A model generated the notes under the pieces. It did no database searches and was not told where the DNA came from. It saw only the letters and a program-made list of their open reading frames with translations. A stretch of 51,217 nt of DNA from Candidatus Magasanikiibacteriota bacterium (GTDB lineage: Bacteria; Patescibacteriota; Patescibacteriia; Magasanikbacterales; UBA922). Location: positions 1 through 51,217 of the forward strand of contig JACPGR010000025.1 of NCBI GenBank assembly GCA_016182415.1. The letters are read 5' to 3'. The translations under genes and the position numbers were made by a program. Below, piece by piece: positions 9,243 to 45,422 of this stretch (within the stretch, counting starts at the first letter, position 1; each line of letters opens with the position of its first letter).

Positions 9243-9423
9243 GTAACTATTCAGCCTCATGTCTGGTGAACGCAACTCTATCCCCGCCTTTCTCTTCCGA
9301 AGAGAAAGGAGACACGTGAACATTTTTCCCCTCTCTTCAGAAAGAGAGGGGCGAGGGGTGAGTTGCGTTCACGGAGAATGGGGATAGAGTTACGTTCACC
9401 CGTAAAGCGGAGTGAGTAATTAC
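9243..9423. mobile_element. MITE of the IS66-linked family, copy A
   Basis: A 181-bp element with ends GTAACTATTCA and, inverted, GTAATTACTCAC, followed inward by GTGAACGCAACTC on both sides. It is flanked by an exact 8-bp duplication, AAATTTTC (9235-9242 and 9424-9431). The interior holds CTTTCTCTTCCGAAGAGAAAG and CCCCTCTC stem-loops and no gene. Confidence 0.85.
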
Positions 9424-11622: not shown

Positions 11623-11640
11623 TGGTTGAGTGTTTTGATG
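11603..11640 (+). terminator. Hairpin overlapping the DUF3800 stop codon
   Basis: CATCAAAAAACTCAAC pairs with GTTGAGTGTTTTGATG with one mismatch. There is no pure T-run, so termination strength is uncertain. From 11641 to 11774 I see only a small CCGGATACTCCGG palindrome. Confidence 0.55.
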
Positions 11641-11774
11641 AAGTAGCGTCTTACAAAATGGTTACCTGAGGCTTTAACATTCCGGATACTCCGGAGGAAC
11701 ACCCCAGCATCTCATAAGCTATTATTGCATACTTCACCATTACTATAACACAATAACTTGAGCGTGTCAACTGT

Positions 11775-41890: not shown

Positions 41891-41966
41891 AATTCTTATC
41901 TCAATTTTATCTCAATATATCTCTATGTATCTCAATCTTATCTCAACTATATCTCCACCTTATCTC
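41889..41966. repeat. TATCTCAA repeat run overlapping the end of thrS
   Basis: About seven copies of (T/A)ATCTCAA-like units follow the terminator and enter the last codons of thrS. Same family as 5045-5182 and 23604-23720. Confidence 0.6.
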
Positions 41967-43726
41967 CGTTCTTTAATCTCCCCCAACACCCGCTCCACAA
42001 ATTCCCCCTTACTCATCTTGACTTGATCCTTCTCCCCCCGAACACGAATCATCCAGTCTCGCCCTGAGCCTGTCGAAGGGTCGACCTCGATTTCTTTGTC
42101 ACCAAAAACGACTACATACGGAATTTTTTGTCCCGCAGCTTTGCGAATTTTATTTCCGATTGTTTCAGATGCATCGTCCACATCTACTCGAATACCAAGC
42201 GCATCCAATTCTTTGGCTAATGCATGCGCAGATTCTATATGTTTATCAGAAACCGGAGCAAGACCAATTTGCACGGGGGCAAGCCAGACAGGAAATGCCC
42301 CGCCATAATGTTCAATAAGTACAGATATAAATCGTTCGACTGAACCCAAGACCGCTCGGTGAAGCATAACCGGACGTACTTTTTCACCTGTGTCATCAGT
42401 ATATTCGAGTTCAAACCGTTCAGGCAAATTGAAATCAAGCTGTATCGTTGCAAGTTGCCAGATACGACCGATTGCATCAGTAGCTTTGAAATCAATTTTT
42501 GGACCGTAAAATGCTGCTTCACCTGCCACTTCGGTAAACTCAACTCCAATCTCTCTAAGTAATTCTCTCAATTGTCCTTCCGCGCGTTCCCAGACTTCCG
42601 CACCACCCAAATATTTTTCCGGATGTTTGGGATCACTGAGCGACAATTCCACACGTAAGGGCATACCAAATGCCTTGTAAAAAGTTTGGATTATTTCATA
42701 AAGCCCCTTTGCTTCGTCTGCCACTTGATCCAGCCTGCAAAACACATGTGCGTCATCTTGTGTGATAGATCGGACTCGAGACAAGCCTTGCAACTGTCCG
42801 ACATTTTCATCTCGATACACCGCAGTCACTTCACTCATACGAATCGGTAAATCTTTGTATGAACGAGGACGGGACGCAAAAATCTGTGTATGATGCGGAC
42901 AATTCATTGGCTTCATGACAAATTCCTGATCTGTCTTTTGACTACGGACATGAAAAATATCATCTGCAAATTTATCCCAATGACCTGAGACTTTATACAA
43001 ATCAGCCTTCGCAATATGTGGAATGGTAACTCGTGTATACCCATAGGGTTTCATAAGCGACCAAATAAATTTGGTAAGTTCTTCACGAATAATCGTTCCT
43101 TTTTCTGTAAACAGTGGCAAGCCCGGACCCACCAAATCAGAAAATACAAACAAATCCAATTCTTTACCTAGTTTGCGATGATCTCGAAGTTTTGCTTGCT
43201 CAAGCATTTCCAAATGTGCATTCAATTCTTCCTGAGTCGGAAAACAGGTACCATAAATACGCGTCAACATTTTATTTTTCTCATCCCCGCGCCAATAGGC
43301 TCCTGCGACAGACAATAATTTGAAATACTTCATTTCCTCTTGCGGATTATCTGAGTGACCACCTTTACACAAATCAAGAAAATTTCCCGGGTCATTTTCC
43401 GTAATAGTTTTTCCCTGACTTGCAAAATCATCAATGAGTTCAAGCTTATATGGATTTTCTGCAAAATCTTTTTTTGCTTGTTCGACGGATACTTCTCTCA
43501 CCACAAACGGCCCCCATGTTTTGAGAATTTCACGCATTTTTTCTTCGATTTTTGGTAGATCTTCCTCAGAGATTTTGTAGTCCCCCATATCAAAATCCTG
43601 ATAAAATCCACTTTCAATCGACGGCCCGATGGCATTGTGTGCACCCTTATAAATTTGTTTCACTGCTGACGCAAGTAAATGCGCACAGGAGTGTCGACGT
43701 TGGTCGAGACTGATATGTTCTGACAT
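41960..43726 (-). CDS. thrS: Threonyl-tRNA synthetase
   Basis: A 588-residue class II synthetase that charges tRNA-Thr. The N-terminal editing (SAD) domain has RRHSCAHLLASAVKQIY and DLCKGGHSDN. The catalytic core shows MNCPHHTQIF (zinc ligand Cys), YRDENVGQLQGLSRVRSI and PVMLHRAVLGSVERF. An anticodon-binding domain closes the protein. The TGS domain usual at the N-terminus is missing, as in other short ThrRS. PSTGSGR near the C-terminus is encoded by an inserted CCCTGAG...TCGAAGGG repeat. A T-box leader upstream would regulate it by uncharged tRNA-Thr. MITE D separates that leader from the ATG. Confidence 0.96.
   Translation of the reverse strand: MSEHISLDQRRHSCAHLLASAVKQIYKGAHNAIGPSIESGFYQDFDMGDYKISEEDLPKIEEKMREILKTWGPFVVREVSVEQAKKDFAENPYKLELIDDFASQGKTITENDPGNFLDLCKGGHSDNPQEEMKYFKLLSVAGAYWRGDEKNKMLTRIYGTCFPTQEELNAHLEMLEQAKLRDHRKLGKELDLFVFSDLVGPGLPLFTEKGTIIREELTKFIWSLMKPYGYTRVTIPHIAKADLYKVSGHWDKFADDIFHVRSQKTDQEFVMKPMNCPHHTQIFASRPRSYKDLPIRMSEVTAVYRDENVGQLQGLSRVRSITQDDAHVFCRLDQVADEAKGLYEIIQTFYKAFGMPLRVELSLSDPKHPEKYLGGAEVWERAEGQLRELLREIGVEFTEVAGEAAFYGPKIDFKATDAIGRIWQLATIQLDFNLPERFELEYTDDTGEKVRPVMLHRAVLGSVERFISVLIEHYGGAFPVWLAPVQIGLAPVSDKHIESAHALAKELDALGIRVDVDDASETIGNKIRKAAGQKIPYVVVFGDKEIEVDPSTGSGRDWMIRVRGEKDQVKMSKGEFVERVLGEIKERR
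42062..42080. repeat. CCCTGAGCCTGTCGAAGGG repeat inside thrS
   Basis: Read on the coding strand it encodes PSTGSGR in frame, in a loop of the anticodon-binding domain. Its sister copy is at 421-439. Confidence 0.7.
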
Positions 43727-43777: not shown

Positions 43778-43936
43778 GTAACTATTCACCTTACTTTACT
43801 CGTGAACGCAACTCTCCCCTCGCCCCTCTCTTACCGAAGAGAGGGGAAACACACGGCACTGTGTCTCCTTTCTCTTCGGTAAGAGAAAGGCGGGGATAGA
43901 GTTGCGTTCACAGGACATGAGATGGTGAATACTTAC
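43778..43936. mobile_element. MITE of the IS66-linked family, copy D, in the thrS leader
   Basis: A 159-bp element with ends GTAACTATTCACC and, inverted, GTAAGTATTCACC, each followed inward by GTGAACGCAACTC. Flanks are AGATTATT and AGATTTTT, an 8-bp duplication with one mismatch. It sits between the T-box terminator and the thrS ATG. Confidence 0.85.
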
Positions 43937-43948
43937 AGATTTTTTAAT

Positions 43949-44165
43949 AAAAAAACCCCAGTACCTATCCTCAAAAAAAATTTTAAGAATACATACCGGG
44001 GTCACAACAAATGTTGAGACGGTTCCACCCATGGTTTTAACTTTCGTTGAATTGTATCAGTTCTGCGCGTATACGTGGTACCATGTGGTTTCTCCTAAAA
44101 GAAGCTCTCAGCATATACTTCTTATCTCTGGTAGGGAACCTGCCACTGGGTGGGGTATACTCAAT
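43949..44165 (-). promoter_or_regulatory. Threonine T-box riboswitch of thrS
   Basis: On the minus strand the T-box motif GGGTGGAACCG is at 44030-44020. The antiterminator is visible: GGG, bulge TGGAACC, helix GTCTCAAC-attt-GTTGTGAC, then CCC. The same ACCCC begins a competing terminator, ACCCCGGTA (44002-43994) with TACTGGGGT (43963-43955) and seven T. Stem I closes with GTATAC (44160-44155) against GTATAC (44074-44069), with inner GTGG/CCAC and TTCCCTA/TAGGAGAA helices. The specifier loop holds ACC (44079-44077), a threonine codon, followed by A. All of this matches the gene it precedes. Confidence 0.88.
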
Positions 44166-44198
44166 AATATAGACAGCTTACTAAAAAACACTACAAGT

Positions 44199-44204
44199 TG
44201 TCAA
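44199..44204 (-). promoter_or_regulatory. Possible -35 of the thrS leader transcript
   Basis: A TTGACA lies 39 bases before the T-box base helix. A good -10 at the usual spacing is not seen, while TATATT/TATTAT lies ~28-30 bases downstream. The start site is therefore uncertain. Confidence 0.35.
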
Positions 44205-44282: not shown

Positions 44283-45422
44283 TTACTCCACCTGCTTAAT
44301 CGTAATACTCACATGATCCGCCACATGTGGCACGCTACGATTCCACATCGGTCGAAAATGCATCTCTACACCTTGTACATGATCAAGCGACATCACATAT
44401 CGCCTCACTTCATCTTCAGTTTTTCCAAAAAACATAATTTTTTGCAATTCTTTTGTATTTGGGTCAATATCCACCAGTCCGCTATAGGATACTACTAAAT
44501 CCGCTGTTCTTGCAGCGGTATCAAACTGCGTTAAGACAACAGTAGGAGCGTCTTTCACAGACTGCAAGACTTCGCTCTTATCCACAACTTGCTTTTGGAG
44601 CATCTCTTGGGCATACTCCGTCAATTTTGCGTGGTCATAAAATACTCCCGCAACTGTTGCAGTTCCTGAAAGAACAAAGGAACTGGTCTCAACTCCAAGC
44701 TCCGCGTCATATGCAAATACCGCACCGCTTACTTCAAACAACGCTACCTTATCAGAATACAAGCCAACCAAAATTTCTGAACCCTTTTTCTTGATATCTT
44801 CAACAAGAATTTTTTCGGCTTTTAAAATATCAGCCTCTGACAAGACACCAATCTTTCGAACACCACCTGTCATCGCGGCCTCGCTTTTTGCATAAATTAG
44901 TTGTTGTTTTGCTTCATGTAGACCGGGAATTGTAAAACGTGATGGCCCAATATCACTTGCGAATCCTTTTTGATCTGCATAGACGTGCGCTTCGATAGTT
45001 CCGTTTGCCGGTACGATAACCCCATTTTTCAAACGAAACAAGACGCCGTCAGGTGTAAGCAGGCGGGTAGTGGCAATAAGCGGTTGCGCGATACCCGAAT
45101 CATTGATAAGTGTAACAGTTCCTTCAGAAACTCCTTCTTCAGTTTTAGATCCTTCAGGACTAAAGGTCTTTTCTAAGGTAAGGATAGTACTCGTCACAAA
45201 ACCTGGTACGGTCGCATCAGCAAGAGCGGAATTAATGGTAATGCTCCCTTGCGCTTCAATAGATTGTGATCGTGTAATAATTGTAATATCCGCGCGCTTG
45301 GCAGCCATAAAGACAATCGCACCCAGCAATATGATGGTGATGATTAAAAATGTAAGCGCTACGAATTTATAAAAGCGCACCGGCTGATTGCGTGGTGTGC
45401 CATTGATTGTGGTACTGACCAT
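44283..45422 (-). CDS. Single-span membrane protein with baseplate-J-like segment
   Basis: 379 residues. A short cytoplasmic N-terminus and one membrane helix (~20-43) are followed by a long beta-rich outer region. EGTVTLINDSGIAQPLIA, then TRLLTPDGVLFRLKNGVIVP and ADQKGFASDIGPSRFTIPGL, resemble the repeated core of baseplate J / gp47-like proteins. The last ~130 residues alternate helices and strands. It lies downstream of pilB on the same strand. I infer an envelope role but no specific function. Confidence 0.6.
   Translation of the reverse strand: MVSTTINGTPRNQPVRFYKFVALTFLIITIILLGAIVFMAAKRADITIITRSQSIEAQGSITINSALADATVPGFVTSTILTLEKTFSPEGSKTEEGVSEGTVTLINDSGIAQPLIATTRLLTPDGVLFRLKNGVIVPANGTIEAHVYADQKGFASDIGPSRFTIPGLHEAKQQLIYAKSEAAMTGGVRKIGVLSEADILKAEKILVEDIKKKGSEILVGLYSDKVALFEVSGAVFAYDAELGVETSSFVLSGTATVAGVFYDHAKLTEYAQEMLQKQVVDKSEVLQSVKDAPTVVLTQFDTAARTADLVVSYSGLVDIDPNTKELQKIMFFGKTEDEVRRYVMSLDHVQGVEMHFRPMWNRSVPHVADHVSITIKQVE

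Follow-up and report, generated by a model that had tools for sequence, protein, structure and literature searches.

What controls the expression of thrS, the gene for threonine--tRNA ligase, in a bacterium of the Patescibacteria is the question raised by the leader that precedes this gene in a window of 51,217 nucleotides, namely the whole of contig JACPGR010000025.1 (assembly GCA_016182415.1, Candidatus Magasanikiibacteriota bacterium). A first-pass annotation, made from the letters alone, placed a complete threonine T-box riboswitch at this site, in the correct orientation, and took the organism to be probably a patescibacterium. Homologues, covariation, the specifier and the tRNA discriminator bear out the threonine T-box and its orientation, and the lineage is confirmed by named kin as Magasanikbacteria, which NCBI places in the Parcubacteria group of Patescibacteria. 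The sequences it had named, GUAUAC/GUAUAC, ACC followed by A, GGGUGGAACCG, the shared CCC and the terminator with TTTTTTT, all lie on the minus strand (Table 1). From its sequence and by analogy with the T-box family, the leader is very probably a T-box riboswitch through which uncharged tRNA-Thr governs thrS by transcription attenuation.

The leader belongs to a family of related sequences. A covariance model built from relatives without the window (R3, leave-one-out) finds it with 90 bits (E 2e-23) as the sole match in 51 kb. A fuller model, R1, matches 60 of the 86 genomes of the order (Candidatus Magasanikbacteria, Patescibacteria) at E<=0.01, the weakest of these matches being other T-boxes such as those of glyS and apical-loop thrS leaders. 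A third, discriminator-only model (R2) is specific and narrow (25/287 phylum genomes) and is no gauge of T-box prevalence. The T-box core, specifier and terminator recur upstream of thrS in most relatives within the family and order, a check that the first-pass annotation had suggested, and the specifier and T-box letters are near-invariant across genera. A pattern search of named genomes returned 21 records, most of which come from Candidatus Magasanikbacteria or other Patescibacteria, with one (L053) labelled only as 'uncultured bacterium'. Another of the 21, labelled 'Kuenenia' (L051), is GC-rich, lacks an antiterminator or terminator and is read as chance.

Compensatory changes support the helices. 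In a plain MAFFT alignment of 20 leaders the covariation score is 0.442, against 0.200 for shuffled and at most 0.157 for slid controls; with 43 model-aligned leaders, where the alignment leans to structure, it is 0.504 against 0.188. Among 27 hand-parsed leaders the base helix of stem I keeps its pairing in 132 of 135 cells (95.3 +- 3.2 in shuffles) and the P2 helix in 95 of 108 (66 +- 4 in shuffles), and in the 43 aligned leaders 98% of base-helix cells are paired. Opposite the specifier, the counterpart of the window's CCCA-CCCA in relatives is NNNA-GCCCA, in which GCCCA is near-invariant. A weak hit of the 'freshwater-2' model RF02980 over stem I (19.1 bits, gathering score 49.9) is ascribed to chance, as its helices differ from the covarying ones.

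Table 1. Features of the thrS locus in the window, with positions counted from its first nucleotide.
Feature	Position	Strand	Details
Threonine T-box leader	43949-44160	minus	~220 bp upstream of thrS, directly 3' of conserved promoter
thrS, threonine--tRNA ligase (putatively regulated gene)	41960-43726	minus	TIGR00418, 653.8 bits vs cut-off 383.65
Upstream same-strand gene	44283-45422	minus	ends at 44283; leader lies between it and thrS
Probable promoter	44175-44204	minus	TTGACA 44199-44204, 18 nt spacing, TAAGCT 44175-44180
Stem I base helix GUAUAC/GUAUAC	5' strand 44155-44160, 3' strand 44069-44074	minus	covariation
Specifier region, 5' strand CCCA-CCCA (full stretch CCCACCCA)	44147-44154	minus	opposite UGGU-ACCAC
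P2 helix GUGG/CCAC	5' strand 44143-44146, 3' strand 44085-44088	minus	covariation
Distal stem I module	44099-44131	minus	AGAGA bulge 44125-44129, 6-bp AAGAAG/CUUCUU helix, apical loop UAUAUGCUGAGAG
UGGU, pairing with NNNA of 5' strand	44080-44083	minus	hand-parsed and aligned leaders
Specifier ACC (Thr), then A, in 5-nt side bulge ACCAC	44077-44079	minus	AC invariant
Single-stranded linker in place of stem II	44032-44068	minus	37 nt
Purine string GAAAG-UU-AAAA (GAAAGUUAAAA) in linker	44035-44045	minus	purine motif conserved
Antiterminator helix A1	5' strand UGGG 44028-44031, 3' strand CCCG 43997-44000	minus	98-100% of cells paired
T-box bulge UGGAACC, within GGGUGGAACCG	44021-44027	minus	7 nt, between helices A1 and A2
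Antiterminator helix A2, hairpin GUC-UCAACAUUUGUUGU-GAC	44001-44020	minus	covariation, 32 leaders
Intrinsic terminator hairpin	43954-44003	minus	-30.0 kcal/mol, 44003 through T run
Terminator T run TTTTTTT	43949-43955	minus	sequence

The specifier and the T-box bulge both agree with the gene and its tRNA. The specifier always reads as threonine, with AC in 43/43 aligned leaders and a third base that is C in 40, U in two and A in one. The genome carries tRNA-Thr genes with the anticodons GGU (as the first-pass annotation had expected), UGU and CGU, all three with the discriminator U; the UGGA of the T-box bulge complements the 3' end UCCA (U73) of these tRNAs. A similar agreement is seen for two further T-boxes of the same genome. 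A leader with a GGC specifier precedes glyS (L082, G000:C93:3550-4375) and carries UGGA, matching the discriminator U of tRNA-Gly, whilst an Ile-type leader combines an AUC specifier with UGGU, matching the discriminator A of tRNA-Ile. The specifiers seen in relatives are GGC or GGA before glyS and AUC before ileS.

The details of these two additional leaders are as follows. In the glyS leader GGC lies within an apical loop of 6 nt, with a K-turn-like AACGAA/GGA below this loop, and the Rfam T-box model RF00230 misses the leader. The Ile-type leader (L180, G000:C58:1-2300, near 1590, minus strand) has the hairpin CCG-UCAUCAG-CGG and UGGUACC, and precedes a NOL1/NOP2/sun RNA methylase gene. The ileS gene itself lies on another contig (C24), and no T-box was found in the ~200 bp of upstream sequence present there; upstream of ileS, the start of that contig (L250 1-130) holds tandem repeats of ~10 bp (TATCTCAACG), similar to repeats just downstream of thrS. 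The glyS leaders of one genus (L153, L155) apparently use GGA rather than GGC.

The 3' part of the leader has the form of a switch. The CCC at 43998-44000 is common to the antiterminator and to the terminator, whose 5' strand is GACCCCG, and both sequence and computed folding indicate that the two structures would exclude each other. The computed folding energy of the 3' segment is -36.8 kcal/mol when free and -28.2 kcal/mol with the antiterminator forced and, as the free fold is the stronger, the terminator should win without tRNA. A terminator is present in 31/31 scored internal-bulge leaders of relatives and overlaps the antiterminator strand in 25 of the 28 that could be scored. For glyS leaders the strand-overlap score is mostly zero, and the score does not support such an exclusion there. 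When the whole leader is folded to minimum free energy, CCACCC pairs with GGGUGG of the T-box; this fold was set aside because the pairing is not exactly preserved in relatives. In five relatives (L022, L049, L054, L056, L062) the loop of the antiterminator hairpin is extended by long insertions in which a CGGCCGGCAAGCCGTC-like sequence recurs, perhaps a mobile palindrome inside the riboswitch.

The proposed mechanism takes tRNA binding, the sensing of aminoacylation, contact with the tRNA elbow and the sign of regulation from the T-box family as a whole. The ACC in the side bulge of stem I would pair with the GGU anticodon, and the distal loops of the stem probably stack on the tRNA elbow. 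The letters of the distal module equal the RF00230 distal consensus AGAGA / UGaaA and those of leader L031, and on these letters it resembles the tRNA-elbow module (IDTM). With uncharged tRNA-Thr, the free UCCA end would pair with UGGA and hold the antiterminator, allowing RNA polymerase to continue into thrS. The end of a charged tRNA-Thr could not seat, in which case the CCC strand would join the terminator and transcription would stop.

Transcription probably starts near 44168. The sequence TTGAC[AG] is found at the promoter place in 41/43 thrS leaders compared with 7% of shuffles, and the assignment of TAAGCT as the -10 element follows the pattern seen in relatives. Between the T-box terminator and thrS lies a palindromic repeat of ~110 bp (43800-43914), which would fold into a large hairpin within the leader of the thrS mRNA; it occurs at ~40 places in the genome (79 matches, both orientations), including 9266-9373 of the window. 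In several genomes (L154, L160, L165, L169) GNAT-type acetyltransferase genes are found between the T-box and thrS, so that the switch would control them too. Elsewhere in the window, a DUF3800-V RNA (RF02964) is found at 11639-11736 on the minus strand (68.7 bits, gathering score 37.4).

A number of observations count against a T-box at this site. The canonical stem II, the stem III hairpin, a loop-E specifier loop and a clear K-turn are missing, and the description of the T-box as complete was thus too strong for what is a reduced architecture. Stem I alone folds no better than shuffles (z 0.20), and the thrS genes of some relatives have no recognised T-box. The terminator of the window was missed by a simple scan for terminators, perhaps because of an interior mismatch in its stem. 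Finally, the RF00230 scan that the first-pass annotation had suggested gave no match to the window at any threshold tried, even with permissive settings, nor to the whole genome at E<=10. Over 13 relatives RF00230 was also silent on the type-A leaders tested, with 30 bits on one apical-loop leader. Because the relatives' own model matches the window, this silence is read as a limit of the reach of RF00230. Silence is also all that was found of the pair of results, no covariance match together with no conservation, that the first-pass annotation had named as grounds for abandoning the T-box.

Such gaps could suit a T-box-like RNA that no longer senses tRNA, acting instead as a fixed attenuator or as a sensor of something else, such as a protein. 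The stem II, stem III hairpin and K-turn on which the published classes rely are absent or unclear, and even the elbow module is lacking in some relatives. However, ACN and UGGA are held while the surrounding helices change, and specifier and discriminator fit both gene and tRNA in thrS, glyS and ileS leaders, which makes this alternative highly improbable. A different proposal, which concerns origin and not function, is that a working T-box and thrS were recently acquired together from Firmicutes. Transfer has been put forward as a general route of T-box spread (PMC7583486), and the first-pass annotation had suggested that the element would either widen the known range or point to transfer. 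This inference is revised here, as T-boxes of several specificities are widespread in the phylum and the leader is shared across the order, with the element in 60/86 genomes. RF00230 itself matches 89 of 240 phylum genomes at E<=1, with eight above the gathering score. The window-type leader is rare outside the order according to R1, yet graded relatives occur in other families of the class, where looser kin (L202, L215-L217) retain the distal arm and the ACCA specifier. This spread, the graded kin and the Gly and Ile T-boxes of the same genome make a recent, isolated single transfer unlikely, and acquisition with thrS from Firmicutes in particular exceedingly so; an old transfer is a separate matter and is compatible with these data. 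The notion that the hairpin does no more than terminate the upstream gene, with T-box-like letters that are chance or a decayed relic, draws on a strong terminator, the end of a same-strand gene at 44283 and the silence of RF00230, but is largely refuted by the leave-one-out match and the covariation, and with a conserved promoter between that gene and the element, compensatory changes that keep the helices paired and near-invariant specifier and T-box letters before thrS across genera, its probability is close to nil.

In more distant patescibacteria, T-box-like leaders were also seen before valS (L213, with GUC in the loop) and probably serS (L210), these genes being named by eye from the protein sequence.

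The threonine T-box of the window can be compared with four described classes (PMC10482949). Class I has a long stem I with the IDTM, plus stem II; class II is similar without stem II and is glycine-specific; class III is short, with the specifier in an apical loop and a required stem II; and class IV is intermediate, with a side-bulge specifier and no IDTM. The latter two are mostly translational. The window leader fits none of these and is a reduced transcriptional threonine T-box. It shares with class II (the Bacillus subtilis glyQS type) predicted transcriptional control, a stem I with a distal module that resembles the elbow module, a T-box antiterminator and terminator, a specifier on the 3' side of stem I and a single-stranded linker that replaces stem II. 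Unlike class II it is specific for threonine rather than glycine, its specifier occupies a short bulge on the side, next to UGGU/NNNA, the loop-E letters AGUA/GAA are absent, it has no stem III hairpin, and the distal module is lacking in about half of its relatives. Class IV (the Actinomyces odontolyticus ileS type) also has a side-bulge specifier, and the short relatives of the window leader resemble it in having no IDTM. However, class IV is mostly translational and is said to resemble class III, which requires stem II, whereas an intrinsic terminator and no stem II are found here and an IDTM-like module is retained in the window itself. Class III (the Nocardia farcinica ileS type) is matched in its apical-loop specifier by the hairpin-type thrS, glyS and ileS leaders of the order, although these are followed by terminators, many have no obvious stem II, and the window form differs from them. 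With Rfam RF00230 the window shares the T-box bulge, the antiterminator and the distal AGAGA / UGARA letters, although neither the window nor the type-A leaders tested were scored by that model.

The relatives show how far this architecture can be reduced. Stem II is not present in the window, with its 37-nt linker, or in 31 relatives, whose linkers are unstructured (median 33 nt, median minimum free energy -1.1 kcal/mol). Of the RRRxG - stem III - AA arrangement the purines are kept, and the stem III hairpin is absent in most thrS leaders. The distal letters are present in the window and in long relatives, whilst in 17 of 31 strictly parsed relatives the arm is too short for an IDTM. Many short relatives have a K-turn-like feature, an asymmetric loop with GA opposite ~7 nt and an outer helix that is 61-63% paired and partly covarying, and a K-turn at the base of their stem I is plausible; the inferred transcription start of the window leaves little room for one. 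In family f8 and elsewhere, thrS leaders have apical loops, for example CUACCAA or UUACCAG, that hold the specifier. Long, short and apical-loop forms of stem I thus occur before a single gene within a single order. On balance, we lean slightly towards a further T-box class for the patescibacterial thrS leaders. This class would be transcriptional and specific for threonine, would set the specifier in a side bulge together with NNNA/UGGU and GCCCA, and would have neither stem II nor a stem III hairpin. In its short members, where stem I spans ~45 nt, the elbow module would be missing and contacts at the codon and the acceptor end would be enough on their own; the long, short and apical-loop forms would be a natural series of stem I reduction.

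No paper on patescibacterial T-boxes was found among open-licence PMC papers, which is not proof of novelty, and RF00230 annotations of such genomes are likely to exist in databases. The novelty lies in the architecture, in which a threonine T-box of the transcriptional type holds its specifier in a side bulge and does without both stem II and the stem III hairpin; roughly half of the relatives, though not the window itself, also lack the elbow module. According to a review and a later paper, T-boxes that act on transcription generally require a long stem I carrying this module, and short ones mostly control translation and depend on stem II (PMC7583486, PMC10482949). The magasanikbacterial thrS leaders break this link of transcriptional control with a long stem I, and they provide very small natural test pieces for the minimal requirements of a T-box. 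They also reveal that the standard model RF00230 misses T-boxes of the Patescibacteria, including all three of this genome, in a phylum where little is known of gene regulation.
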